IMG/VR virus record: IMGVR_UViG_3300003886_000043
Location: 1-24,437 of that record
Origin: a virus
DNA length: 24,437 nt
Reading direction: 5' to 3' (one strand)
Shown in pieces: positions 1,551 through 24,437 of the stretch (positions are counted from its first letter, which is position 1; each line of letters begins with the position of its first letter). A model generated the notes under the pieces. That model ran no database searches. It saw only the letters and a program-made list of their open reading frames with translations, and was not told where the DNA came from. The translations under genes and the position numbers were made by a program.

Positions 1551-1579
1551 TTGACAGCGAACCACGAATGTGCTATACT
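1551..1579 (+). promoter_or_regulatory. Extended sigma70 promoter opening the structural block
   Basis: TTGACA (1551-1556), 17-bp spacer, TATACT (1574-1579), with TG one base before the -10 (extended -10). The start point would be near 1586, just before the terminase region. The same hexamers, spacing and part of the spacer recur at 6895-6923 and 21350-21378, so this belongs to a phage-wide promoter set that host RNA polymerase should read. Confidence 0.88.
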
Positions 1580-6661: not shown

Positions 6662-6951
6662 TTTTCAAGTGCTGGTCGTGTGGGGCCTGCTGTAAGATGG
6701 CAGGCCTCAATCACCCTGAGTTGGACCGGGGGGATGGGGCTTGCATTAATCTTACTGAAGATAATCTATGCTCCATTTACGACGACCGGCCCGATTTTTG
6801 TCGACTTAATCCAAATCGCCCTGCCGCAGAGCAAGAAAAGTGGTGCAAACTCATTGAAGCTAACTGGCAAGATTATGTCAAAACCTTGAAGGGGTTGACA
6901 GACGATCACGGGTGTGGTATACTCCTCAGGAATGAGAAGGATGATGGGTAG
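6619..6951 (+). CDS. YkgJ/CxxCxxCC-family cysteine-cluster protein
   Basis: With ATG 6619 the product is 110 aa. Its cysteines fall in the pattern of the CxxCxxCC (YkgJ-like) family, thought to bind zinc or iron: CWSCGACC (18-25), GACINL (C42), NLCSIYDDRPDFCR (C51, C61), a further C76, and a late cysteine in HGCGILL. The CSIYxxRPxxCR signature is especially typical. The biochemical role of the family is poorly defined. The start has no Shine-Dalgarno, and the first 14 codons lie inside the tRNA-like element; a TTG at 6607 is an in-frame alternative. The capsid promoter lies within its last 20 codons. Its place between scaffold and capsid is unusual for a metal-binding protein. Confidence 0.78.
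   Translation: MTNGKTGSIPAPTSIFKCWSCGACCKMAGLNHPELDRGDGACINLTEDNLCSIYDDRPDFCRLNPNRPAAEQEKWCKLIEANWQDYVKTLKGLTDDHGCGILLRNEKDDG
6895..6923 (+). promoter_or_regulatory. Extended sigma70 promoter for the capsid gene
   Basis: TTGACA (6895-6900), 17-bp spacer, TATACT (6918-6923), with TGG before the -10 making an extended -10. Expected start near 6930, giving a leader of about 140 nt before the capsid ATG. It lies inside the end of the cysteine-cluster gene and shares hexamers, spacing and GGGT/GTGG spacer pieces with the promoter at 21350. Confidence 0.88.
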
Positions 6952-7979: not shown

Positions 7980-8007
7980 GGGGTCCCGATATCGGGACCC
8001 CTTTTTT
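7980..8007 (+). terminator. Rho-independent terminator after the capsid gene
   Basis: An 11-base GC-rich arm (GGGGTCCCGAT) and its exact complement (7980-8001) are followed at once by six T (8002-8007). This is the only clear intrinsic terminator I found in the window. It begins 27 bases after the capsid stop, and the next gene's Shine-Dalgarno follows the T-run within four bases, so downstream head and tail genes probably rely on readthrough. Confidence 0.93.
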
Positions 8008-12598: not shown

Positions 12599-14343
12599 AA
12601 TTGCCTGATATAGTGCAACAGCCAGTTGGCGAATTTGCCAGCGGCAATATTGCCCAGCCAAATTATCAGCGACGTGGCGGGGCTGCTGGGGGTTTGATCG
12701 ATGCCGCCTCCGATGTTGGTGTTGCTCTGTATAATGAGAAGTTAGTCGGTGATGTTGATGAAGCCACAGGTCAAGCAGCTCTTGAATTGAGCGAACTTCG
12801 GGCCGAGCTTGTTAACAGCAATACTCTGGATGCTGACTTTGTGGGGGATGATATTCTAGCCGACATACAGATTCAAGTGTCTGACGGAAAAGGAGGCCGA
12901 AAAGAGATTTCTAAGCCGAAAATTTTCACGCATGAAGTTGCGGAAGAATTGTGGGCTAAGCGATCCCAGGAAATTGTGGGGAATTACGCCAGCCAAATTA
13001 AGAACAAGAAGGCCAGAGAGAAATTTGTCGAAGAAATAATGACGAGGTATGTTGTTCCGGGTTCATCTGCTGTTATGGGTGCCAATATCCTCCGCAGTAA
13101 AGCATTTGGACAGGCCCGGGCGGAACGAGCAGTAGAAGAGGTATTGGCCTCGAATGCCCCGACCGACATAAGAGAAACCAACGCTCGTGAAATAATCGCT
13201 AGGCAAGTTCTATTGGGTGCCGATTCCGTGTGGGCTGAAAATCAGTTAAATAATTTGGGACCGGCGGTCGATCAGATTGATGTTCAGAATAAGATAATGG
13301 GCGCACAGTCAGCCGACCAGATTGATCAGATTGAAGAAACAATGTGGTCCGAAGGCAGCCGAATGACCCCAGAACAGCAGCGAACAATGTCCAATATCAT
13401 GGATCAACGACGAAGAGATTTCAGGATTGAGGAGCAAACTCGTCAAACCGACAATGCTGATGAAATGTTCGTGCAATATTCCCAAGGGGATTTAACCATT
13501 CCACAAGTGTCTGCCGCCGTGGGGTCCAATCAAATTACCCGTGAGGCTGGGTGGACTTTCCTAAACGGATTAAGTAAAGGCAACACAACGAGAGCAACTG
13601 ACCCATTTATGCTTAGTCGGATGCGAGGCGAAATATCCAAACTGAAATACGTTGGTAACAATATGCGTATGACGGATAAGGCTAAATTGCTCAAACTCAT
13701 GATCACACGTGGGTCTATGGGTCTTAATCCTAACGGCACACCATCGGGGCAACCGGCCACAATATCAGGTGAAGATGTTTTCAAGCTCAATAAAGATATT
13801 GATTCAGCCGTGAATGCGACACTGGAAAGTGATGAGTACGACAACGCTCTCCAATCCGTTTATTCGTGGACACGGGTATCACTGGGATTTGGTGGCCAAT
13901 TCACTACCATGCTTGATGGAAATCAAGCCACGGTTGATGCCGCTATAGAATTTAAGAGAGCGCTTGATAATTACATGGACGCGTATGGTGCGGATGCTAA
14001 ACCTTCCGAATTTTTTGAAGCCAATAAAGATTCGTACAGTATGAATTTGTTTGATGATGGTATTAACGGTGCTTTCTATAATGCAGTACCACAAATGAAA
14101 CCGTTTGCCACCATGGACCCAACTGGTTATTTAATCGCGGAATTCAATGTTGTACAGCAAGAGAACTTCATTCTATGGTTATCTGGTGCTAATCTACCAG
14201 TTGATGAGCATAATTCCATTATCACGTTATTTGATCAATATTATCGTGGTAAGGGTATAGCCCCCGATAATGGGGCATTGATGCTGGAACCAGATGATCC
14301 TTTGTACCGTCAATTTCAACAGATGATACCAGACAATGAGTAG
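12595..14343 (+). CDS. Internal virion protein, T7 gp15 position
   Basis: A 582-aa, mostly helical protein, starting with MKLPDIVQQPVGEFASGNIAQP, a start often found in podovirus internal proteins, then a long helical body without signal peptide or membrane segment. In the T7 model gp15 forms the periplasmic tube of the ejectosome; size (T7 gp15 is about 750 aa) and gene order support equivalence. GTG at 12595 overlaps the previous TGA (GTGA), and the end overlaps the next gene by eight bases. No enzyme motif is evident. Confidence 0.78.
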   Translation: MKLPDIVQQPVGEFASGNIAQPNYQRRGGAAGGLIDAASDVGVALYNEKLVGDVDEATGQAALELSELRAELVNSNTLDADFVGDDILADIQIQVSDGKGGRKEISKPKIFTHEVAEELWAKRSQEIVGNYASQIKNKKAREKFVEEIMTRYVVPGSSAVMGANILRSKAFGQARAERAVEEVLASNAPTDIRETNAREIIARQVLLGADSVWAENQLNNLGPAVDQIDVQNKIMGAQSADQIDQIEETMWSEGSRMTPEQQRTMSNIMDQRRRDFRIEEQTRQTDNADEMFVQYSQGDLTIPQVSAAVGSNQITREAGWTFLNGLSKGNTTRATDPFMLSRMRGEISKLKYVGNNMRMTDKAKLLKLMITRGSMGLNPNGTPSGQPATISGEDVFKLNKDIDSAVNATLESDEYDNALQSVYSWTRVSLGFGGQFTTMLDGNQATVDAAIEFKRALDNYMDAYGADAKPSEFFEANKDSYSMNLFDDGINGAFYNAVPQMKPFATMDPTGYLIAEFNVVQQENFILWLSGANLPVDEHNSIITLFDQYYRGKGIAPDNGALMLEPDDPLYRQFQQMIPDNE

Positions 14344-17300
14344 AACTGCAGAACAAGTACAAGAGGAAGCGGAGAAAATTCGTCGCGGTCGATTGGAAGC
14401 TTCAGGATTGGCGGATCAATATGATTCGTGGCGTGAATCTTTGCCGAATGCTCGGATACCGGATAATGAGGTTTATGAAATGTTCATGAACTCTCAGCTT
14501 GCCGAAGAAGCCGCGACTTCTGGTAGGCTGTCCGTGTCCACGGGTGGGACGGAGATCACCACCGATACCGACGTACCGACCCCCGGTCCCGATGCCGAGG
14601 AGACCCGTCCCGATGAGGCCGGAGAAGTATCGAAAGGGGCTGATGAGCGGGACACCGATCTAAAAATTGTGGAGGGCATGTGGCTGCCGCCCGAGGAATC
14701 AGAAGCACTCAACTACGAATCACCTTCGACATATAAGATGTCTCGATCCAGAGATTGGGTTGACAATGCCAAAGTGCTGTATGATTTCATGAAACCTAAA
14801 GGTGAAACTCGCGGTCAGACTGGCGGATTGGGGGCCAATATATCAGGGATCATCGGTAACGCCCCCAAACAATTCAATGACGAAGAAATTGGCCAATGGG
14901 CACGTAATCAGTTATCCGGGTTCCAATGGAACACCGTCATGACTTTGAATTACGCTCAGAAAATTATGACTTCGGACGATCCGAAGTTGGCTCTGGCGTT
15001 CCTGAATCTGATCAATATGTATGATCACTCAGATGGGTCTGCAATGGAGTTTGCCGGGGCGGTTGGTGAAGTGCTAACCGATCCGACTACGTATCTTGGA
15101 CTCGGAGCCGGTGGTGCCGCTGCCAAAGCTGCTACTAAAGCGTTGATTAAAACTAAGTTAAAGAAATCCATCCAAGTAGCCATTGCCGGTGCGACTGCTG
15201 GTACCATAGAAGGCGGCATGTTGGGTGGTGGTTATGACCTCACAGTACAAAACGTCGAACAAGAAGCCGGGGCCAGAGAGGACATTGATCTTGGTAGAAC
15301 TGGCATTGCCACGGGCATCGGCATGGGTGCGGGTGCGTTTCTGGGCGGAGTTGGTGGTGCCTGGGCCGGACGCAAGATGGATAAATTTGCTGCTGAGGTT
15401 GAGAGGCAACGGCTAATATCGGCGGGTGCTGGTGATGTATTGGACCAACGATCCACACAAGAGTTGAATGAACAAGAATTACTTGCAATGCTCGTGGATT
15501 CTGTTAAAGCAGCTGATTCACCTGTGGGTGAAGCGGCCACTGTAACTAAGGGCCAACGGGATGAAACAGCTCAAATTGCCATGCAGATTTTGGGGGACGA
15601 TGGTCAGATCCCTAGACTTGATGATGGCAGTTTGGACTTTGGAAAAATTCACCAGATTGTTAAAGATGTCACAGTTAAACGTGAAGCGGATAGGATCAAA
15701 GAGTTTGGTCCGGATCCTAAACCCCAAGTTGATGACTTAAGTAATGTTATTCAAGCTGAGGATAAGTTTACGCCCAACGTTACTGACAAGGAATCTCGTA
15801 AATTAATCCAAAAAATTATCGAAATGGAGGAGTTGGAGAAGGGCGATATTATTATGCGCACTACCACTCGTCCGGGCAGCAGGGTCGTCGATGAATTAGG
15901 AACCGGATACGAAGTAGTGGGTCGCACCAAAAATGGTTGGTATAAGCTCAGGGATGATTTGGGCCGTGAAAGTAGCTTTCGTCGCAAAGATTTTGAAGTA
16001 ACCATCAAAGCTCCAGCGCCGCGAAAAGCGGGACCAATGCATCTTGACCCTTTCAGTGAAAATGCCGCTAAAATTATTGCCATGAACGAGCGAATTGTTA
16101 GTGGAAAATTGGTCGGTGTTAAAATAACTACCCCAGAACAAATGGCGATTGTAAAAGATTTACGGGATATGGGCGTCAACATAACCAAAAAGCAATTGGC
16201 TTCTTTTTGGACGCCCGCCGAAATGGTGTTTTTACGAAATACATATAATTCTCAAGCATTAGCCATGGCCGATCTTTCCCGTAAATTTGAATCTAAACTG
16301 CGGAATGATGGGGTATTAACGAATCAAGATTTAGCCTTCTTTAACCAGGCCCATTCACAATTTGTGTCGACCCGAGATTTATTTTTTGGGGTATCGGGCA
16401 ATGCCGCTCGCCAATTACAAATTCTCAGAACTAAGCCCACAGACGAGGTCTATCAATTTAGCCAGAGCCTGATGGACTCAATCAGTTTACAGGGTGGCCG
16501 TGCCAATACTGAACGTGCTATCAAATTGATGTCTGATTTTTCCCGTAAGACGGGCGATGATATATCCAATGTCACTCGCGGCATCAGCAAGATGTCCGAT
16601 AGCATTTGGGGGAGTGCTAAAGCATCAGCCATCCTGAATGTCAGATATAATATGATGTTGTCGAGTTGGCGTACCCACTTTTTCAACTTCTTGGGTAATT
16701 CAGCTTCTGGTGTCTATCAACATTTAATGGTAAGTCCCGTACGAATGGGGATTAATAACTTAGCCTATGCTCGAGATTTGGCTAGGTCGGTGATTCAACC
16801 CAAGTACAAGCCCGATCCTGCTGACAGGCTTACTCGACATCAGTGGTATGCCGAACTTCGTGGCCACTATTCGGGCTTCCGTGACAGCTTGGCTCTTGCG
16901 AAAGAAATCGCCATGGGTCGCGATATTGGTGAAGGCAAAGTATGGAATGAGCTTGGTTTGCGATACAATGTCATCAATGTGCCCGATTCGGCATTTGGTA
17001 AAGCAGGCACTACTCCGGTGAGATTGCTTGAGGCTGGGGATGCTTTTTTCAAGAATCAATATTATAATTCCAAAATGCATGAGATTGCCAGTATTCGGGC
17101 CAGGGCCGATGAGGTCAATGGAGGGAAGGATTACGAAACCCGGTACAATCATCATTTAGATAATCCAGATTCGGCTGCGGAAAGAGCGGCGACAGCATTT
17201 GCCGCCAAACAAACCTACACCAATGATCCAAACGTATACGGCGGAGTGTTGGCGGCTTTAGCTAAGGGTGTGTCAACAGCCCAGAACCAGAGTTTATTGG

Positions 17301-18595
17301 TTAACCTGATTGTCCCCTTTGTTCGCACTCCAGCGAATTTATTGAGTTATTCAATGGAAATGATTGGCGGCAATGCGGTCTTGTCCCCGGCAAAAACTTA
17401 TAGGGATATCATGGAGGGTACAGCACTGGAAAGTCAAGAAGCCCTATCCCGATTGACTGTGGCTGCAGGGCTGTGGCTGGCCGTAGCTGAAATGCATGAG
17501 AATGGAGATATCACAGGGACCGGCCCCACTAACTGGGAAGAGCAAAAAGTCTGGGAGGCTGCGGGGTGGCAGCCTAATTCAATAAAAATTCATGGCCAAT
17601 GGTATGATATGTCACGGGCTGCCCCTGCAGGACAATCATTGGCTACTATAGCATCAATATATGATTACTATTCCATGACCCAACAACAGGATAAACCGGC
17701 CATGGAGTGGGTCGGTGTTGGTTTGTTATATACGGCTGACATGATCATTGATGAGTCTTACTTATCCACAGCAAGTGATATAATGACTGCTATCTCGTCC
17801 AAGAAGGGATCCCGAGCAAGATCAGTGGGTGCCAGTATAATTAATTCAATGTTGGTTCCGAATTTGTTGCGCGATTTTCGCCGTCCGGCAGATGAAGTTA
17901 TGCGGAGTACCTCCAGCAATAATTTGATGGTCCAAGTCCATAAGCAGATGATGAATGCCTCACCTTGGCACTCTGAAGATTTGCCGCCCAGCCGGGACTG
18001 GAGGGGTCAACCGAAGAATTATTACGGCAATGCTTACGTTCGGGCTTTGATTCCGTTCAATGTTCGCGATCCTGACAAATCTGATCCGGCCAGTATGGCC
18101 CTTGCTTATTCCCGGATCCCGGTATCTACACCAAACAAAACCATCGATTGGCCTGGTGGAGGCGGTGATGGTGTCGATCTATTTGCTATGGACGGTGGGG
18201 ATGGTTACGTTTATGATAAATATCTCCAACTGATCGGTGAATCGCGTGAACACACCGTGAACAGGGTCATGCAGGCTAGTGCCTGGCGTAAGTTAGTTGA
18301 TGCTGATATGATTGGCCCTAATTCGGTTGGGGATTTCATGCTACGCAAGGCTTTGGGCGTAGGCAGTAAATTGGGCAGAATGGCAATGTTGGATTTCCTG
18401 ATTTCACACCATGGGGAGAACAACACATTTGAACGCGGCAACGGGGAAACGATAGTTATTCAACATTCCGTCAGCGTTGATACTTATCGCAGATTGCGAC
18501 GTGCCATTGGCGGGGAAGTTGATCCGTTGGAACCAACGATGGATCAGTACATAATGAATAAGCCCATTGAAGGTCCAGAGTTCTTTAAACCATGA
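14336..18595 (+). CDS. Giant internal virion protein, T7 gp16 position
   Basis: At 1419 aa it equals the size of T7 gp16, the ejectosome subunit that reaches the inner membrane. Residues about 240-350 contain several glycine/alanine-rich hydrophobic stretches (YLGLGAGGAAAKAATKAL, GIGMGAGAFLGGVGGAWAG) that could insert into membrane; the rest is largely helical. Unlike T7 gp16, I see no N-terminal lytic transglycosylase motif. Residues 80-100 are a Pro/Asp/Glu-rich linker (VPTPGPD...TRPD...GEVSK) nearly identical to residues 125-145 of the secreted protein at 23446-24075. The gene overlaps its neighbours by 8 and 4 bases. Confidence 0.82.
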   Translation: MSRTAEQVQEEAEKIRRGRLEASGLADQYDSWRESLPNARIPDNEVYEMFMNSQLAEEAATSGRLSVSTGGTEITTDTDVPTPGPDAEETRPDEAGEVSKGADERDTDLKIVEGMWLPPEESEALNYESPSTYKMSRSRDWVDNAKVLYDFMKPKGETRGQTGGLGANISGIIGNAPKQFNDEEIGQWARNQLSGFQWNTVMTLNYAQKIMTSDDPKLALAFLNLINMYDHSDGSAMEFAGAVGEVLTDPTTYLGLGAGGAAAKAATKALIKTKLKKSIQVAIAGATAGTIEGGMLGGGYDLTVQNVEQEAGAREDIDLGRTGIATGIGMGAGAFLGGVGGAWAGRKMDKFAAEVERQRLISAGAGDVLDQRSTQELNEQELLAMLVDSVKAADSPVGEAATVTKGQRDETAQIAMQILGDDGQIPRLDDGSLDFGKIHQIVKDVTVKREADRIKEFGPDPKPQVDDLSNVIQAEDKFTPNVTDKESRKLIQKIIEMEELEKGDIIMRTTTRPGSRVVDELGTGYEVVGRTKNGWYKLRDDLGRESSFRRKDFEVTIKAPAPRKAGPMHLDPFSENAAKIIAMNERIVSGKLVGVKITTPEQMAIVKDLRDMGVNITKKQLASFWTPAEMVFLRNTYNSQALAMADLSRKFESKLRNDGVLTNQDLAFFNQAHSQFVSTRDLFFGVSGNAARQLQILRTKPTDEVYQFSQSLMDSISLQGGRANTERAIKLMSDFSRKTGDDISNVTRGISKMSDSIWGSAKASAILNVRYNMMLSSWRTHFFNFLGNSASGVYQHLMVSPVRMGINNLAYARDLARSVIQPKYKPDPADRLTRHQWYAELRGHYSGFRDSLALAKEIAMGRDIGEGKVWNELGLRYNVINVPDSAFGKAGTTPVRLLEAGDAFFKNQYYNSKMHEIASIRARADEVNGGKDYETRYNHHLDNPDSAAERAATAFAAKQTYTNDPNVYGGVLAALAKGVSTAQNQSLLVNLIVPFVRTPANLLSYSMEMIGGNAVLSPAKTYRDIMEGTALESQEALSRLTVAAGLWLAVAEMHENGDITGTGPTNWEEQKVWEAAGWQPNSIKIHGQWYDMSRAAPAGQSLATIASIYDYYSMTQQQDKPAMEWVGVGLLYTADMIIDESYLSTASDIMTAISSKKGSRARSVGASIINSMLVPNLLRDFRRPADEVMRSTSSNNLMVQVHKQMMNASPWHSEDLPPSRDWRGQPKNYYGNAYVRALIPFNVRDPDKSDPASMALAYSRIPVSTPNKTIDWPGGGGDGVDLFAMDGGDGYVYDKYLQLIGESREHTVNRVMQASAWRKLVDADMIGPNSVGDFMLRKALGVGSKLGRMAMLDFLISHHGENNTFERGNGETIVIQHSVSVDTYRRLRRAIGGEVDPLEPTMDQYIMNKPIEGPEFFKP
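14573..14635 (+). repeat. Dispersed 63-bp coding cassette, copy 1
   Basis: This segment and 23818-23880 agree at 57 of 63 bases and are read in the same frame in two unrelated proteins. The encoded linker holds VPTPGPD, TRPD and GEVSK. Identity drops away at both ends, so it behaves like a discrete cassette. Confidence 0.93.
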
Positions 18596-19794
18596 CTGTT
18601 CAGGACAACACACCATCGGTTACACATATTGGCACAGGTGCGCAGATATCTTTTCCATTTGCGTTCCGGGTCAATGACGCCGCTTGGTTGAATCTCGATT
18701 TTTTGACTGATTTTGACCAATTTATCCTTAACCCGGATCAGGATATTGCACCCGGCGGCTCAGTTGAGTATTTAGTGGCTCCACCATTGGCTCAGGCATT
18801 AACTGTCACAAGGGACACACCCAATACTCAGGAATTGAATTACACCCGGTATGACCCATTTGACTCTGAATCGCACGAAGATGCACTTGATCGACTAACA
18901 ATGCAAATTCAGGATCTCGAATTTACCCTCGGTGGAAGTTTTACCGTAATCAATGCACATATTGCCGATGTTATAATCCACTTCGCGGATGCCCCAAATG
19001 ATGGCAACGATTATGTGCGGAACAATAATTTATGGGTTATAGCGTCTCCCGGCGGCGTTACTGATCACCTTTTATTGACTAATATTGGTGTCAATACCCA
19101 TGCACAGATTGATTCGATGCTGGCGATTACTGGTGCACATATTGCCGATGGATTAATTCATTTTTCTGAAGGGTCTATAGATCATACTAACATTTTGAAT
19201 GTCGGTGTCAACACTCATGTTCAGATCGATTCCCACATCGCTGATGGATTAATTCATTTTTCTGAAGGGTCTATAGATCATACTAACATTTTGAATGTCG
19301 GTGTCAATACCCATGCGGACATTGACTCGATGTTGGCGATCACTGGTGCGCATATCGCTGATGGATCAATTCATTTTTCTGAAGGGTCTATAGACCACGC
19401 TAATATTCTGAATATTGGTGTCAACACTCACGCACAGATTGATGCACAACTAATCACCTTGGCCCTAAAAGCTCGCGGCATAACTATAGAAAATCCCCTT
19501 ACTAATGATAATTTTGCAATTTTCTTCACTGATGTTGAAATTATCATCCAACAATTGAATTTTGTGCTACAGGGGACGGTTGATGCCACAGTATTCATTT
19601 CATTTGGTCCAGATCGATCAACAACCCCTACCGATGTAGTCAATGCCGGGACAGTTGTATCAAACAGCACGGTGGGTCAGGAAATTGCGGTCTTCGACAA
19701 CCCAATAATACCCGCCGGTAATTGGGTAGTAGTTCGTATAACCGCTATAACAGCAACTCCTGATGAACTCAATGTTTCTATGGTATTCGTCTAA
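18592..19794 (+). CDS. Tail fibre 1 with T7 gp17-type N-terminus and repeats
   Basis: Residues 1-110 form the virion-anchoring domain of T7-type fibres: MTVQDNTPSVTHIGTGAQISFPFAFRVNDAAWL, then ELNYTRYDPFDSESHEDALDRLTMQIQD. Residues about 120-290 are a repeated stalk with IGVNTHAQID and HIADGLIHFSEGSIDHTNIL motifs, typical of trimeric phage fibre shafts. The C-terminal ~110 residues (ARGITIENPLTNDNFAIFFTDVEI...) are a beta domain seen at the ends of various phage tail proteins. This domain order gives a stalk with a host- or particle-binding tip. ATG overlaps the previous TGA (ATGA). A second fibre with the same anchor occurs at 21637. Confidence 0.92.
   Translation: MTVQDNTPSVTHIGTGAQISFPFAFRVNDAAWLNLDFLTDFDQFILNPDQDIAPGGSVEYLVAPPLAQALTVTRDTPNTQELNYTRYDPFDSESHEDALDRLTMQIQDLEFTLGGSFTVINAHIADVIIHFADAPNDGNDYVRNNNLWVIASPGGVTDHLLLTNIGVNTHAQIDSMLAITGAHIADGLIHFSEGSIDHTNILNVGVNTHVQIDSHIADGLIHFSEGSIDHTNILNVGVNTHADIDSMLAITGAHIADGSIHFSEGSIDHANILNIGVNTHAQIDAQLITLALKARGITIENPLTNDNFAIFFTDVEIIIQQLNFVLQGTVDATVFISFGPDRSTTPTDVVNAGTVVSNSTVGQEIAVFDNPIIPAGNWVVVRITAITATPDELNVSMVFV
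19147..19424 (+). repeat. Fibre-stalk repeats, two copies identical over 65 bp
   Basis: The 65 bases at 19147-19211 recur without change at 19243-19307 (96 bp, 32 codons apart). A third, diverged copy starts at 19360, 117 bp (39 codons) after the second. The extra seven codons hold the SMLAITGA segment, which is also upstream of the first copy and missing between the first and second. Confidence 0.95.
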
Positions 19795-20033
19795 TGCCTC
19801 GAGATAGATTACAGTCTTCTAAATCCGATATTAAACGTCGTGATGTGGTGAAAAGTATTGTCGAATTTGTTGAGGATGAAAAAAGATCCGGTCGTACTAA
19901 GCCGAATCGTAGAACCATTGAGACTAGGATACGATTAACAGATGAACTATCCCAAAGGCAGGTGAATGAAGCGCTGATTGAAATTTATAATAACCTGGTA
20001 CTGCTTGGTCTGGTGCCCCCCCGTGTTAGATGA
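19794..20033 (+). CDS. 79-aa basic protein, possible helix-turn-helix
   Basis: The ATG overlaps the fibre stop as TAATG. The product is basic at the N-terminus (RLQSSKSDIKRRDVVKSIVEFVEDEKRSG) and continues NRRTIETRIRLTDELSQRQVNEALIEIYNNLVLLGLV. The IETRIRLTDELSQRQVNEALIEI stretch resembles the turn and second helix of a winged-helix unit, followed by a beta-like LVLLGLVPP. It might regulate gene expression or act as a fibre accessory; no specific family is recognised. Placement inside the fibre cluster leaves both open. Confidence 0.75.
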   Translation: MPRDRLQSSKSDIKRRDVVKSIVEFVEDEKRSGRTKPNRRTIETRIRLTDELSQRQVNEALIEIYNNLVLLGLVPPRVR

Positions 20034-20145
20034 TATTGAATTTGATGCGCTTATTAATATCCTAGAGGCTGCCAACCAGTTGCCACTAATTGAGTACGGT
20101 GACGATGGCATGCCTCTCCCGATTGTTTTGCCGGACCCTGACTAA
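20023..20145 (+). CDS. 40-aa acidic protein between fibre genes
   Basis: A GTG at 20023 opens a short frame that ends at TAA 20143-20145, overlapping the next ATG (TAATG). It overlaps the previous gene by 11 bases, following the packing style of this whole run and filling a gap that would otherwise be the only one here. The peptide is acidic (LDDIEFDALINILEAANQL, then a Pro-rich acidic end LPIVLPDPD). No Shine-Dalgarno is visible, so translation would depend on coupling. No function can be suggested. Confidence 0.6.
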   Translation: MLDDIEFDALINILEAANQLPLIEYGDDGMPLPIVLPDPD

Positions 20146-21353
20146 TGGCCCAACAAGTTATTGTCGTTGAAGAAGCGATTGACAACTATGCGACGTGGTC
20201 GCATACATTCCAGAACGCCAACACCCAATGGCTTTTCTTTGATACGCGGCAGATTTTTAGTAACTTTTTTATCGGATTGCAGGGCCAGACTGAGAACGCT
20301 TGGAACACTCAAATTCCTCCTGGAAGTACCATTCTGTCGGCCACAATGGAGTTCACGCCTTTCCAATCAAACAGCGGACTATTTGGAAGTACGCTCGCGG
20401 CCACCATAAGTTCACCGAACAGAGCGCTGCAAGCACAGAAACAAGACCCACTACAATTGCCGTTTGAGCCGTTTGTGGGTCAGCGGCGGGACAGATTTTC
20501 AAATGCCGATGTTGTCGTTTTGTCGACAACTTTTACCACGATTGCAGCACCCGCAGGAGGCGCGGCAAATGCTTCTTGGGCATTGCGTCACTTTACCTAC
20601 TCGCCCGGCACTGCAATACCCAACCGGGCACGACTTGAACAGCGGATCACTGCGGCGGTGGGTAATACAGACATATCGTCAATCACATGGAGATTGATTA
20701 GATCTGCTGTTGCACCACCGGGGGATGTGCGGGTCAGAATTCAAGGCGTGACCGTTGATCGAGGCGTGACGATTGCCGATGGTGTAGACGTTGCAGTGTC
20801 TAATCCAGTGTCAATGGCTACACTCACAACCGTGGCGGGGGGAGCGGGCGTTCCGTTCACCTTCCCCGGCGTAGTGTCGTTGATCGCTGGGCAGCAATAC
20901 TTTCTAGTTCTGGACCCGGACCCGTACTTTTCCCCTGCATTTCCGTTGTCGGTGACATCATTCATAGCAGCGTATCACTACAACGCTTTCCTGCAAGATG
21001 GTCAGCTATATCATTATGGTGGGGGTCTTGGTTTCGATTGGCAGAACTACCCCGGCACGACGGACTTAAATTTTGCAGTGGTGCTGGCGGCAGACGATAT
21101 TATTCCGGGCGGGATATCGTGGCTGATAGGTAACGTCGTTGTCGGTGTTTTGGAAACGTCGCCGGATCTTTCTGCGCTGGTGCAAGCCCAGATCGATATG
21201 CCGAACTACACGGCGGACTCGGGCATCATCCTTACTTTGTCACGGTCAACTTCTCAGGCAAACACGCGCATCCTGAGTTCTAACTATCACCCGACCTTTC
21301 CCGGCCCCGTGCTTCGCATTACCTATATACCTAGACGAATTATGGTAACTTGA
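20145..21353 (+). CDS. 402-aa beta-rich tail fibre/receptor-binding candidate
   Basis: The product is beta-rich, without signal peptide. The halves at about 1-190 (PPGSTILSATMEFTPFQS...) and 330-402 (ADSGIILTLSRSTSQANTRILSSNYHPTFPGPVLRITY) look like parts of a DNRLRE-type beta sandwich, with an inserted domain around 200-310 (VSNPVSMATLTTVAGGAGVPFTFPGVVSLIAGQQYFLVLDP) resembling carbohydrate-binding jelly-roll folds. Similar arrangements occur in phage tail proteins that decorate or tip fibres. Its position between the two gp17-type fibre genes supports this. Its codon choice seems somewhat GC-richer than neighbours, which would fit acquisition by exchange. Its stop codon lies within the -35 of the next promoter. 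Confidence 0.72.
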   Translation: MAQQVIVVEEAIDNYATWSHTFQNANTQWLFFDTRQIFSNFFIGLQGQTENAWNTQIPPGSTILSATMEFTPFQSNSGLFGSTLAATISSPNRALQAQKQDPLQLPFEPFVGQRRDRFSNADVVVLSTTFTTIAAPAGGAANASWALRHFTYSPGTAIPNRARLEQRITAAVGNTDISSITWRLIRSAVAPPGDVRVRIQGVTVDRGVTIADGVDVAVSNPVSMATLTTVAGGAGVPFTFPGVVSLIAGQQYFLVLDPDPYFSPAFPLSVTSFIAAYHYNAFLQDGQLYHYGGGLGFDWQNYPGTTDLNFAVVLAADDIIPGGISWLIGNVVVGVLETSPDLSALVQAQIDMPNYTADSGIILTLSRSTSQANTRILSSNYHPTFPGPVLRITYIPRRIMVT

Positions 21354-21378
21354 CAGAGAACCCGGGTCGTGGTATACT
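21350..21378 (+). promoter_or_regulatory. Extended sigma70 promoter for the second fibre unit
   Basis: TTGACA (21350-21355), 17-bp spacer, TATACT (21373-21378) with TGG before the -10. The -35 includes the stop codon of the preceding gene. Start point near 21385, inside a perfect palindrome. Hexamers and spacing equal those at 1551 and 6895. Confidence 0.88.
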
Positions 21379-21400
21379 GGTGTATCTGTACAGATACACC
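21379..21400 (+). promoter_or_regulatory. 22-bp perfect palindrome over the transcription start
   Basis: The arm GGTGTATCTGT (21379-21389) is followed directly by its exact complement (21390-21400), starting one base after the -10. It covers the expected +1, the classic place for a repressor operator. As RNA only part would be transcribed from near 21385, so a 5' hairpin is less favoured than an operator. No T-run follows, which excludes an intrinsic terminator. Confidence 0.75.
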
Positions 21401-21417
21401 ACCACAAGGATAATAAC

Positions 21418-21633
21418 ATGAATGACGAAAATTCAGAACCAGTAATCCCATCGCCAGCAGAGCAGGGGCAAGCTTCTCATGTTGCTGTGCCAGTTAAATT
21501 ATTGAACATGGTTACAGCACTGATCGGTAGTAAAATTCCATGGGCGGAAGCTGATGGTGTAATGTCGCAATTAAAAGTCAGCTGCATTGCCATTAACTTA
21601 AAACCTGTGAAGATACCTCCAGAACAGGACTAA
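21418..21633 (+). CDS. 71-aa small phage protein between the fibres
   Basis: ATG 21418 follows AAGGA (7-9 base spacing), about 33 nt after the expected transcription start. It begins with a polar, proline-containing tail, then VPVKLLNMVTALIGSKIPWAEADGVMSQLK, resembling small phage proteins with a VPxxLLxxVxxYLxxxPxxEVxxLxxxL pattern, often near lysis or tail genes and of unknown role. It is the first gene after the palindrome-overlapped promoter and lies three bases before the second fibre gene, so the two are co-transcribed. Being first makes it a candidate fibre accessory; it has no obvious DNA-binding motif. Confidence 0.82.
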   Translation: MNDENSEPVIPSPAEQGQASHVAVPVKLLNMVTALIGSKIPWAEADGVMSQLKVSCIAINLKPVKIPPEQD

Positions 21634-21636
21634 ACC

Positions 21637-22974
21637 ATGACGGTTCAAGATGATCCTAATTTTATTGAGTATATCGGAGACGGTGCTCAATTGACCTTTG
21701 CCTTTTCGTTTCGGGTGGATGATGTTGCCTGGGTATCATTGAGTTACGTACTCAATCTCCTCGACATTACTCTGAATGTTGATCAGGATTTGAATCCAGG
21801 CGGTGTTGTGTCATACAACATTGCCCCCCCAAATTTGCAAAGTATTCGAATCCTGCGGATTACCCCGAATAATCAGGAACTCAATTACACTCGGTATGAC
21901 CCATTTGACTCGGAGTCACATGAATCTGCACTTGATAGATTAACTATGCAGATTCAAGATGCGGGGCAGGCTTTCGTTGATTTGGTGGCTCCCGGCACTG
22001 TTGCAAACAGTTCTTTACGGTACGACCCAACAACCCCACCGGGTTATCGAGAATTTGGTCCGGGAGTAGATGAGTATTTCTTCCCGGCTGTTGATGGCCT
22101 TCCTGGTCAGGTTATGATCACTGATGGTGCAGGTCAAGTATTTTTTGCCAATGCGGGTGGTGGTGGTGGCGGTGCACAAATTTCAGGGGCACCAACAAAT
22201 AATCAACTTGCTGTCTGGGTGAATCCGACAGATATAGAGGGTGAGTCTGAACTGACCTACGAGGACGGTATTTTCGAACTAACGTATGCAGGAGTCGGAA
22301 CATCGATAAATCTTAACGCCAACAATGGTAATGCGATTATCGCTCTTGATGGAGAGGAGGCGGGATTTGGTCGACCGCAACTTTTCTTTACTAGTTCTGA
22401 TGTGGGTAACGGTGGGGTCCTGTTCGACTTAAGTGCTAACTTGGGATTATTCGATTTTTGGCAAACAAACACTTCCGGCACCGTTCTTCAGAATAGGTGG
22501 TTGTCCTTCCAGAGAAATGGATCCGCCAATTTCTTCTTCAATGGAGTTCAGTCTTTACGAACTTCGAATAGTGTCGGTAATGATGTCGGCATGGGGGCTG
22601 AAGTACTCCGCACCAATGGGGCTTTTGAGCCTGTGGGGATGAATGTTCTACCTCTTCGTGTTCAAAATGCCGATTTGATTTTTGGACTTAGCACAGTCGG
22701 TGAAATGATTATTCACGATGAAGTCCCATCAAGAACTTACTCCTTGGTGGATATCCCAGGAACTAAAGTTGGTTCGATGTGGGCGGTCATAAACGACGCT
22801 GGAGCGGGAGACATTTTATTTCAAGCAGGGCCGGGTTGTGTCATAACTTACTGGAATGGTACTGGTTGGACAACATCACTCGTTGCTGGGTTTGTGATTG
22901 CAGGGGAAGGTCAGTTTACTGTGTACAAGCGTACGGACTTCGAATATTACCTGACTGGGCCTAATCTAACGTGA
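21637..22974 (+). CDS. Tail fibre 2 with T7 gp17-type N-terminus
   Basis: Residues 1-110 repeat the anchor domain of fibre 1 (MTVQD start, GDGAQLTFAFSFRVDDVAW, then ELNYTRYDPFDSESHESALDRLTMQIQD). After a variable part there is a GQVMITDGAGQVFFANAGGGGGGA hinge, then a beta-rich body (about 190-370) with T/N-rich strands, and a C-terminal ~80-residue domain (TYSLVDIPGTKVGSMWAVINDAGAGDILFQAGPGCVITYWNGTGW) of a kind found at fibre ends. No intramolecular chaperone motif is obvious. Both fibres having the same anchor suggests two fibre types competing for or sharing tail sites. Its TGA overlaps the next start (GTGA). Confidence 0.9.
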   Translation: MTVQDDPNFIEYIGDGAQLTFAFSFRVDDVAWVSLSYVLNLLDITLNVDQDLNPGGVVSYNIAPPNLQSIRILRITPNNQELNYTRYDPFDSESHESALDRLTMQIQDAGQAFVDLVAPGTVANSSLRYDPTTPPGYREFGPGVDEYFFPAVDGLPGQVMITDGAGQVFFANAGGGGGGAQISGAPTNNQLAVWVNPTDIEGESELTYEDGIFELTYAGVGTSINLNANNGNAIIALDGEEAGFGRPQLFFTSSDVGNGGVLFDLSANLGLFDFWQTNTSGTVLQNRWLSFQRNGSANFFFNGVQSLRTSNSVGNDVGMGAEVLRTNGAFEPVGMNVLPLRVQNADLIFGLSTVGEMIIHDEVPSRTYSLVDIPGTKVGSMWAVINDAGAGDILFQAGPGCVITYWNGTGWTTSLVAGFVIAGEGQFTVYKRTDFEYYLTGPNLT

Positions 22975-23432
22975 CAATCCAAATGGCAAATATTGGGGCA
23001 GTTGCGGTTATTTCTCCCACCTCACCATCATTTTTCACGGCCCCTTTACGCATAGTAGATCAGGAATATCACGGGGTAGGTAGCGTGGCACTAGACATAG
23101 ATTTCAGGTTTGGAACCTTTCAGAACAAGCTTCAAAATAAAACACCCGTAAACACATTTGTAAATGTTCCTAACCAGAATCAGTGGAAGGACGATTTCCT
23201 TGCAGCGCCGTCATATTCAGTTCGACATATTTCACTTGAAGGTGACGGTGTAGCGATAATGCCTGCGATAAATATATGGCGTACAATCGATACGACTCGC
23301 ACGTTTGGTATACAACGCCCCGCACCTGGAACTAGCAGATTCATAACTATCAGGGTGGAGCTAGCGGAATCGGCGGACTTATCGACTGTGCTCGCTAGTG
23401 CTCTTTTAACTTTACGATACACAAGGCCATAA
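22971..23432 (+). CDS. 153-aa beta-rich protein downstream of fibre 2
   Basis: A GTG at 22971 overlaps the fibre 2 stop as GTGA. The protein contains strands such as VGSVALDIDFRFGTF, the segment YSVRHISLEGDGVAIMP and RFITIRVELAES, with few charged helices and no signal peptide or cysteines. No domain is recognised. The coupling with fibre 2 suggests a fibre chaperone, tip or tail accessory; the evidence is only position. An in-frame ATG five codons in is an alternative start. Confidence 0.75.
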   Translation: MTIQMANIGAVAVISPTSPSFFTAPLRIVDQEYHGVGSVALDIDFRFGTFQNKLQNKTPVNTFVNVPNQNQWKDDFLAAPSYSVRHISLEGDGVAIMPAINIWRTIDTTRTFGIQRPAPGTSRFITIRVELAESADLSTVLASALLTLRYTRP

Positions 23433-23445
23433 TGGAGTTTTTCAC

Positions 23446-24075
23446 ATGAAATGGTTAATTGTTATATTATTGGCACCTGCTCTAGCATTTGCCACCCCTG
23501 ACATCGTTCAAAGTAACGATAACAACGCCCAAACTACGGGCGATGTCGTAACAGGAGATTCAAAGGCATTTGCATTTGCTCATTCTCTCGGGGACGTTGA
23601 TATTAACCAATGCTTAGGATCCACTCAGTGGGGCACAATATTGGTGTCCAAGCAAAAGTTGGTTCTTAACAAATGGTGTGCCGCCGAAGTTTACGACGCC
23701 AAGGGCATGCATTCAATGGCAGCCCGTCTAAGATGCCAAATATCTGAGATCAAGACCCTATTCAACACCCACCAATCATGTATATTGGAAAACACGTACG
23801 AGCCTATCCCGGTGGGTGTACCGACCCCCGGTCCCGATGATGAGGGGACCCGTCCCGATGCGGTCGGAGAGGTATCGAAATATGAGGATCAGGACCTCCC
23901 GGATATGGATGTTGTGCAGCACCAAATTGACCTACAAGAAGAAGAATTTGACACCCTGACACAAAGAGTCGCCAGAATAGAGTCGGGCAATATTTTAGCG
24001 GCGCGTAGGGCGCAACAACGACGTGATTATGCTCAACTCACGATAGAGAGACTTGAAAATGACCGCGAAAAGTAA
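23446..24075 (+). CDS. Secreted four-cysteine phage protein in the lysis region
   Basis: ATG 23446 has GGAG nine bases upstream. Residues 1-16 form a signal peptide (MKWLIVILLAPALAFA) with likely cleavage before TPDI. The following domain (DVDINQCLGSTQWGTILVSKQKLVLNKWCAAEVYDAKGMHSMAARLRCQ) resembles a protein I know only as hypothetical in podovirus lysis regions; its cysteines 56, 78, 97 and 112 could form two disulphides in the periplasm. Residues 125-145 are the shared linker cassette. The C-terminal 50 residues are a charged coiled coil (LQEEEFDTLTQRVARIESG...). It overlaps the membrane protein gene by 17 bases. A spanin-like or periplasmic role is possible, but no lipobox is present. Confidence 0.82.
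   Translation: MKWLIVILLAPALAFATPDIVQSNDNNAQTTGDVVTGDSKAFAFAHSLGDVDINQCLGSTQWGTILVSKQKLVLNKWCAAEVYDAKGMHSMAARLRCQISEIKTLFNTHQSCILENTYEPIPVGVPTPGPDDEGTRPDAVGEVSKYEDQDLPDMDVVQHQIDLQEEEFDTLTQRVARIESGNILAARRAQQRRDYAQLTIERLENDREK
23818..23880 (+). repeat. Dispersed 63-bp coding cassette, copy 2
   Basis: This is the counterpart of 14573-14635, with six base differences, some silent and some changing residues within the Asp/Glu/Ala/Gly part. It separates the four-cysteine domain from the coiled coil in the secreted protein. Confidence 0.93.
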
Positions 24076-24340
24076 ACAAATAACACAGTGGGTCATCGCT
24101 GTTGTGGCTAGCTTAGGGGGATTAACTGTTCTCGGAATGGCAGCGCAGTTTTGGATCGCCACTGAAGTTAAAGCGCAGCTAACCAGTGTTTCAATACCAG
24201 ACACCAGTCAGATCACTACTGATGTGGAGGTAATAAAAAGCACCGTTGTTGCAATGGACAGTAAAATTGATACCGCCATATCAAATCAGCAACGGTTTGA
24301 GGAAATTTTCACGGCATACTTAATTAACGAGGCTAACTAA
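24059..24340 (+). CDS. 93-aa single-span membrane protein, holin or spanin candidate
   Basis: ATG 24059 (GAGAG about 8 bases upstream) fits better than an in-frame TTG two codons before. A short basic N-terminus (TAKSKQITQW) precedes one hydrophobic helix of about 22 residues (VIAVVASLGGLTVLGMAAQFWIA), and the remaining ~60 residues are polar and helical with heptad-like spacing (VEVIKSTVVAMDSKIDTAISNQQRFEEIF). One segment followed by a coiled coil suits a class III-type holin or an inner-membrane spanin; gene order directly before an endolysin favours the lysis cassette. Which role it has cannot be decided here. Confidence 0.78.
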   Translation: MTAKSKQITQWVIAVVASLGGLTVLGMAAQFWIATEVKAQLTSVSIPDTSQITTDVEVIKSTVVAMDSKIDTAISNQQRFEEIFTAYLINEAN

Positions 24341-24437
24341 TGTTTGTGTACGGTAGTGGGTCCGAATCTAAGATCATAACATGTACTCCCAATCTTAAAA
24401 AGGTGATGTACCGAGGTCTTGAGTTATCTCCATACGA
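24340..24437 (+). CDS. Endolysin N-terminus, M15 peptidase-like (truncated)
   Basis: Only the first 32 codons lie in the window. The start overlaps the previous stop as TAATG. The segment TPNLKKVMYRGLELSPY fits the N-terminal helix of VanY/M15-type phage endopeptidases, whose usual form is S...L.gvhPdLv.vv.rAlelSp.dF.V.eG.R. Such enzymes cut peptidoglycan cross-links (L-Ala-D-Glu or related). The zinc-binding His/Asp residues would come after the window edge, so the catalytic class is not proven. Confidence 0.7.
   Translation, partial: MFVYGSGSESKIITCTPNLKKVMYRGLELSPY

Follow-up and report, generated by a model that had tools for sequence, protein, structure and literature searches.

The window analysed here (the whole stretch of 24,437 bases of the virus record IMGVR_UViG_3300003886_000043) covers the late region of a podovirus, with PHROG matches for a terminase-like protein, a portal/head-tail adaptor, the major head protein, tail proteins, an internal virion protein and two fibre genes. 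Relatives of the portal are encoded at 40 IMG/VR loci, 39 of them with 74-86% identity to the window portal, and the nearest isolates by this protein are Vibrio podoviruses at 53-55% identity, phiVC8 (53%) among them. The window is part of a podovirus genome whose kin include 2-aminoadenine phages, phiVC8 (Enhodamvirus) being one example; a 2-aminooxy adenylosuccinate synthetase and a dATP triphosphohydrolase are among the products annotated in the phiVC8 record. The early region falls outside the window itself. The relatives probably form a 2-aminoadenine (Z-genome) group, since an adenylosuccinate-synthetase-like protein of 350-355 aa was found in 7 of the 14 related records searched, including the longest ones, which extend to the early region. 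At the start of the contig (positions 1-107) the 7-bp unit GTTAGAG is repeated about 15 times; no exact arrays like this were seen in related contigs. The array recalls the 7-bp repeat arrays near the T7 genome ends. On the minus strand, a promoter TTGACA-17-TAAAAT (1152-1124), close to early-type promoters of relatives, sits upstream of a 129-aa ORF of the same strand (668-1057); the early region probably begins there.

Neither a T7-type RNA polymerase (the T7 positive control was recovered by the same search), nor an integrase, nor an HTH_3 (CI/Cro-type) repressor was found in the 14 related records. For this reason the group looks lytic and reliant on host RNA polymerase, always considering that the records may be fragments; phiVC8 is described as lytic. 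T7-like RNA-polymerase control of the late genes was rejected on the evidence of these 14 records, and a temperate-phage repressor system (CI/Cro-type HTH plus integrase) had no counterpart in these records. The features discussed below are collected in Table 1.

Table 1 Promoters, palindromes and genes of the window around the second fibre unit
Feature	Position	Strand	Remarks
Sister promoter before terminase genes	1551-1579	+	No palindrome
Sister promoter before major capsid gene	6895-6923	+	No palindrome
Intrinsic terminator after major capsid gene, GGGGTCCCGATATCGGGACCCC + TTTTTT	7980-8001	+	The window's other long perfect palindrome
Fibre 1, 400 aa	18592-19794	+	N-terminus matches fibre 2
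402-aa protein (p402)	20145-21353	+	Stop codon 21351-21353 within the -35; part of a cassette also in unrelated phages
Extended -10 sigma70-type promoter	21350-21378	+	TTGACA 21350-21355, 17-nt spacer, TG 21370-21371, TATACT 21373-21378; member of a 68-copy class
Perfect 24-bp palindrome TGGTGTATCTGTACAGATACACCA, operator-like	21378-21401		12-nt arms, no loop, centre between 21389 and 21390 (about +5)
Ribosome-binding site AAGGA for p71	21406-21410	+	Read from sequence
71-aa protein p71, first gene of the unit, function unassigned	21418-21633	+	No Pfam or PHROG match
Fibre 2, 445 aa	21637-22974	+	Shares 60% identity with fibre 1 over the first 108 residues
153-aa protein p153	22971-23432	+	A fibre gene of L059 is followed by a weak relative
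209-aa protein p209, signal-peptide-like start	23446-24075	+	Precedes DUF5675 and holin in relatives
95-aa protein p95, hydrophobic membrane-like segment, TTG start	24053-24340	+	With p209, precedes DUF5675 and holin in relatives

The existence of two units with paralogous fibres, as the original prediction had it, was borne out: the 400-aa and 445-aa proteins share their first 108 residues (Table 1) and are unrelated in the remainder. A close-relative search with fibre 2 gave no match. The unit continues into p209 and p95, after which relatives have DUF5675 and a GTA-type holin, and because of this lysis-adjoining position the promoter at 21350, going by gene order, heads a fibre-2 plus lysis segment. 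The internal virion protein (14336-18595) and p209 have a common 34-residue segment, VPTPGPD.E.TRPD..GEVSK, with 59% identity. Six related podoviruses (L048, L049, L054, L056, L061 and L067) resemble the window in having a pair of genes that begin with the same fibre N-terminus; in most of them p209/p95 come after the second gene, and lysis genes come next where the sequence reads further. Relatives vary in the stretch that separates the two fibre N-termini. The C-terminus of fibre 1, a small protein (p79 or an equivalent) and the 402-aa protein form a cassette (within 18592-21353 of the window) that moves as a unit and is found also in L002, L003 and L005, phages with unrelated neighbouring genes. 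Both this variability and the presence of the cassette in unrelated phages make it seem more likely that host range in the group changes by module exchange than via the 21350 promoter.

The consensus promoter that had been proposed between the first fibre cluster and the second fibre unit was confirmed as TTGACA-17-TGgTATACT, with a consensus score of 11/12, the best-scoring site within 14437-24437. Its transcription start is predicted at A21384. It belongs to a class (TTGACA, 17/18-nt spacer, TG(N)TATACT) of which 68 distinct copies, counting both strands, were found in the window and related contigs; they precede early operons, terminase and major capsid genes. At least two copies (L049-17365 and L063-2812) fall within genes and may be accidental. 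The first of them, on the minus strand, is a strong TTGACA-17-TATACT match that lies 580 bp upstream of the second fibre of that relative, inside a small gene and with no palindrome, and it resembles the window promoter beyond both hexamers (common TATACTGG..TATCTG). As one of a 68-copy class, the fibre-2 promoter is very probably real and served by host RNA polymerase, with predicted activity. Switchable production had also been considered unusual for late structural genes. That was too strong a claim for the promoter part, since terminase and capsid carry the same class. Judging from the scan, a promoter ahead of late genes is normal in this phage group, and the unusual feature is the intergenic copy ahead of fibre 2.

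The palindrome described originally as a perfect 22-bp one is indeed perfect, only longer, with 24 bp, and it lies over the expected start as proposed, centred about +5 relative to A21384. Its first base is the last base of the -10 (21378) and it ends 4 bases ahead of the p71 ribosome-binding site. The symmetry extends to the centre (TGTACA) and the outer boxes are TGGTG-N14-CACCA. The chance expectation of a palindrome with 12-nt arms is 0.0015 per window (24437 x 4^-12) and about 2.4e-6 at this exact position and gap, while in 200 first-order shuffles palindromes with arms of at least 10 numbered 0.015 per window and arms of at least 11 did not occur. Among the 67 class promoters with enough downstream sequence, this is the only one with arms of at least 8 at that place, and the arm outside the -10 measures 11 here versus at most 7 at all the others. 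The palindrome is real and non-random.

It is also private to this phage. Sought elsewhere, it turned out to be present in one copy in the 24-kb window, and no copies within 3 mismatches were found in 19 other records, mostly relatives, so that no regulon is visible. Since single-site operators exist, one copy is still compatible with an operator. IMG/VR contains neither the exact 24-mer nor its 18-bp core. In 257 Gb of prokaryotic genomes (genome_contigs), where chance alone would give about 4 matches, the exact core had a single one, which lies ahead of a response-regulator gene in a Clostridiaceae MAG. By these exact searches, which degenerate sites would escape, the palindrome is not the exact consensus of a common regulator, and a widespread host operator was discarded with the same reservation. 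The 18-bp core was not found as a published motif in the literature searched, where the matches were 11-12-nt sub-strings of it and, among the matches listed, unrelated by title and abstract. The text of the MocR motif paper contained nothing similar, and a MocR-type motif was rejected. The six two-fibre relatives, unlike the window, have no intergenic promoter within 700 bp upstream of the second fibre and no comparable palindrome there. Lack of conservation in relatives that keep the promoter had been named in advance as evidence against a regulatory role; the palindrome is unconserved in relatives, yet the intergenic promoter is equally unconserved there, and the argument holds only by half.

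The best reading, which we put forward tentatively, is a putative lac-operator-like site for a symmetric (dimeric) repressor. The symmetric site overlaps the core promoter and start, and a centre near +5 is the position of a steric repressor site. The lac operator lacO1 is a symmetric site over approximately -7 to +17 of a strong sigma70 promoter. The window site is like lacO1 and similar start-site operators in this overlap, and differs in being a perfect palindrome of unrelated sequence at an internal phage promoter, without known cognate repressor. YtrA-type GntR repressors use long palindromes, typically of 24 bp, for example GGTG-N16-CACC (PMC6746942; PMC4494728), which is the X. citri YtrA site, and the Sulfolobus YtrASa site covers the transcription start and represses (PMC6746942). 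Such operators are like the window site in the length of about 24 bp, the outer GGTG/CACC boxes and the start-site position. However, the spacing is N14 here, not the N16 of the X. citri motif, which on this count places the site outside the YtrA type, and no GntR domain was found in 10 related phage records.

The placement, a perfection beyond chance and the fact that this is the sole palindrome of its size in the promoter class argue for the operator. The absence of HTH_3 repressors (14 records) and GntR proteins (10 records), of a regulon and of conservation argues against it. Thus the look of a repressor-controlled promoter that had been pointed out stands as regards an operator-like palindrome over the start of a real promoter; the HTH_3 and GntR searches of related records gave no candidate for a cognate repressor. 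No terminator was found between the fibre-1 cluster and the 21350 promoter; read-through from the upstream late genes can therefore still express fibre 2, and repression of the promoter alone would lower, not abolish, its expression. Such read-through should escape the repression, except if the bound protein halts the passing polymerase as a roadblock.

If the operator is real, the arrangement could work as follows. An extra copy of the phage's own host-RNA-polymerase promoter, as its sequence and the sister promoters show, is placed before the fibre-2/lysis segment, and the 24-bp palindrome would be the operator for a symmetric dimeric DNA-binding protein. A protein bound from about -7 to +17 would, with the geometry of lacO1, block open-complex formation or promoter escape until its departure. 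The gain might lie in when, or in what dosage, fibre 2 and the lysis genes are expressed rather than in a choice between fibres or, alternatively, in keeping a very strong promoter silent early in infection. The repressor could be a host protein or a product of the unsequenced part of the phage genome. This would mean that a lytic phage without a recognisable repressor controls an internal late promoter via a host or unrecognised phage protein, with fibre and lysis gene dosage tied to the state of the cell. A more specific version, in which a strictly lytic 2-aminoadenine phage gates its internal fibre-2/lysis promoter with a host repressor (for instance a YtrA-like, envelope-stress-responsive GntR) and the cell state sets fibre composition or lysis time, is speculative and quite improbable. 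If there is no operator, the locus remains a clear-cut case of a strong class of phage promoter acting on DNA that is probably 2-aminoadenine DNA; the transcription of such DNA appears little studied.

The possibility that comes next, although rather less probable than the operator, is that the promoter works and the palindrome has a non-transcriptional role or origin: it may mark a junction of module exchange, serve recombination or DNA structure, or be left over from the acquisition of the unit. It lies at the border between the exchanged cassette (fibre-1 C-terminus, p79 and p402) and the fibre-2 unit, and its privacy to this phage would fit. The related podovirus phiVC8 offers a comparison, as it has perfect 20-22-bp palindromes GGGTGTCGACGTCGACACCC upstream of purZ and ssb, some beside predicted promoters. 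They differ from that of the window in sequence and number, and are annotated as predicted terminators or inverted repeats. The palindrome GTGTCGACGTCGACAC occurs in 8 copies in the phiVC8 genome, both within genes and between them, including just upstream of purZ and ssb, indicating that such palindromes need not be operators. On the other hand, the single copy in our phage has no partner for inversion or exchange, the exact registration with the -10 is left unexplained and no integrase was found in the 14 related records. An invertible segment, or a site for DNA inversion or recombination, was rejected for the lack of a second copy in the window.

An RNA element is unlikely, a little more so than the previous possibility. 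Here late transcripts from the capsid promoter would contain the palindrome folded into a 10-bp hairpin just ahead of the p71 ribosome-binding site, with a possible role in mRNA protection, processing or spacing. Folding of the complete palindrome as RNA is favourable, with a 10-bp stem (-13.7 kcal/mol, z -3.3) ending 4 nt from AAGGA, and the lack of a terminator towards the upstream genes would let it be transcribed. The capsid terminator at 7980-8001, conserved with its T-run in relatives, is a precedent for a perfect palindrome acting as RNA in this phage; because of it, being a perfect palindrome does not by itself identify a site as an operator here, and symmetry up to the centre says little for one. 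However, the hairpin can be present only in read-through RNA. The RNA that starts at A21384 begins inside the left arm, loses most of it and is almost unstructured (-0.6 kcal/mol, z +0.9), with a residual 4-bp stem, MFE values from -0.6 to -3.1 and z not below zero. A 5'-leader hairpin, which cannot form in the promoter's own transcript, is therefore not the obvious alternative. Neither are leader hairpins a general trait of the promoter class (mean leader z -0.53 versus -0.50 in control stretches), and a hairpin requires neither a symmetric loop nor alignment with the -10. An intrinsic terminator at 21378-21401 was also considered and rejected, as there is no U-tract (CCACAAGG comes next) and the site was not in the output of the terminator scan.

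The switchable production of fibre 2, and with it of host range, that had been suggested originally did not find support, and a repressor-controlled promoter with this purpose is highly improbable. The idea is natural enough with two fibres that share an attachment domain and an operator-like promoter between them, but fibre 1 would be unaffected and stay on, read-through reaches fibre 2, and the unit continues into lysis-type genes. Moreover, the two-fibre relatives do without the intergenic promoter, and no known repressor (CI-type) or lysogeny gene such as an integrase was found in relatives. A chance palindrome without function would agree with the lack of conservation in relatives but is hardly credible given the expectations calculated above for this position and for the window.

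One more trait of the promoter class is its internal complementarity. Between the spacer and the bases that follow the -10 there is more complementarity than expected, with a mean longest helix of 3.90 versus 3.50 +/- 0.11 when the arms were re-paired between promoters, and 0 of 500 re-pairings reached 3.90. Promoters that display it are, for example, L034:5527, L041:2462, L016:3968 and, on the minus strand, L045:1225, L020:2277 and L026:760; the three promoters of the window do not clearly do so. The complementary arms vary from promoter to promoter yet match inside each one (for instance GAGGCTCCG..CGGAGCCTC), pointing to an inverted repeat whose loop contains the -10.
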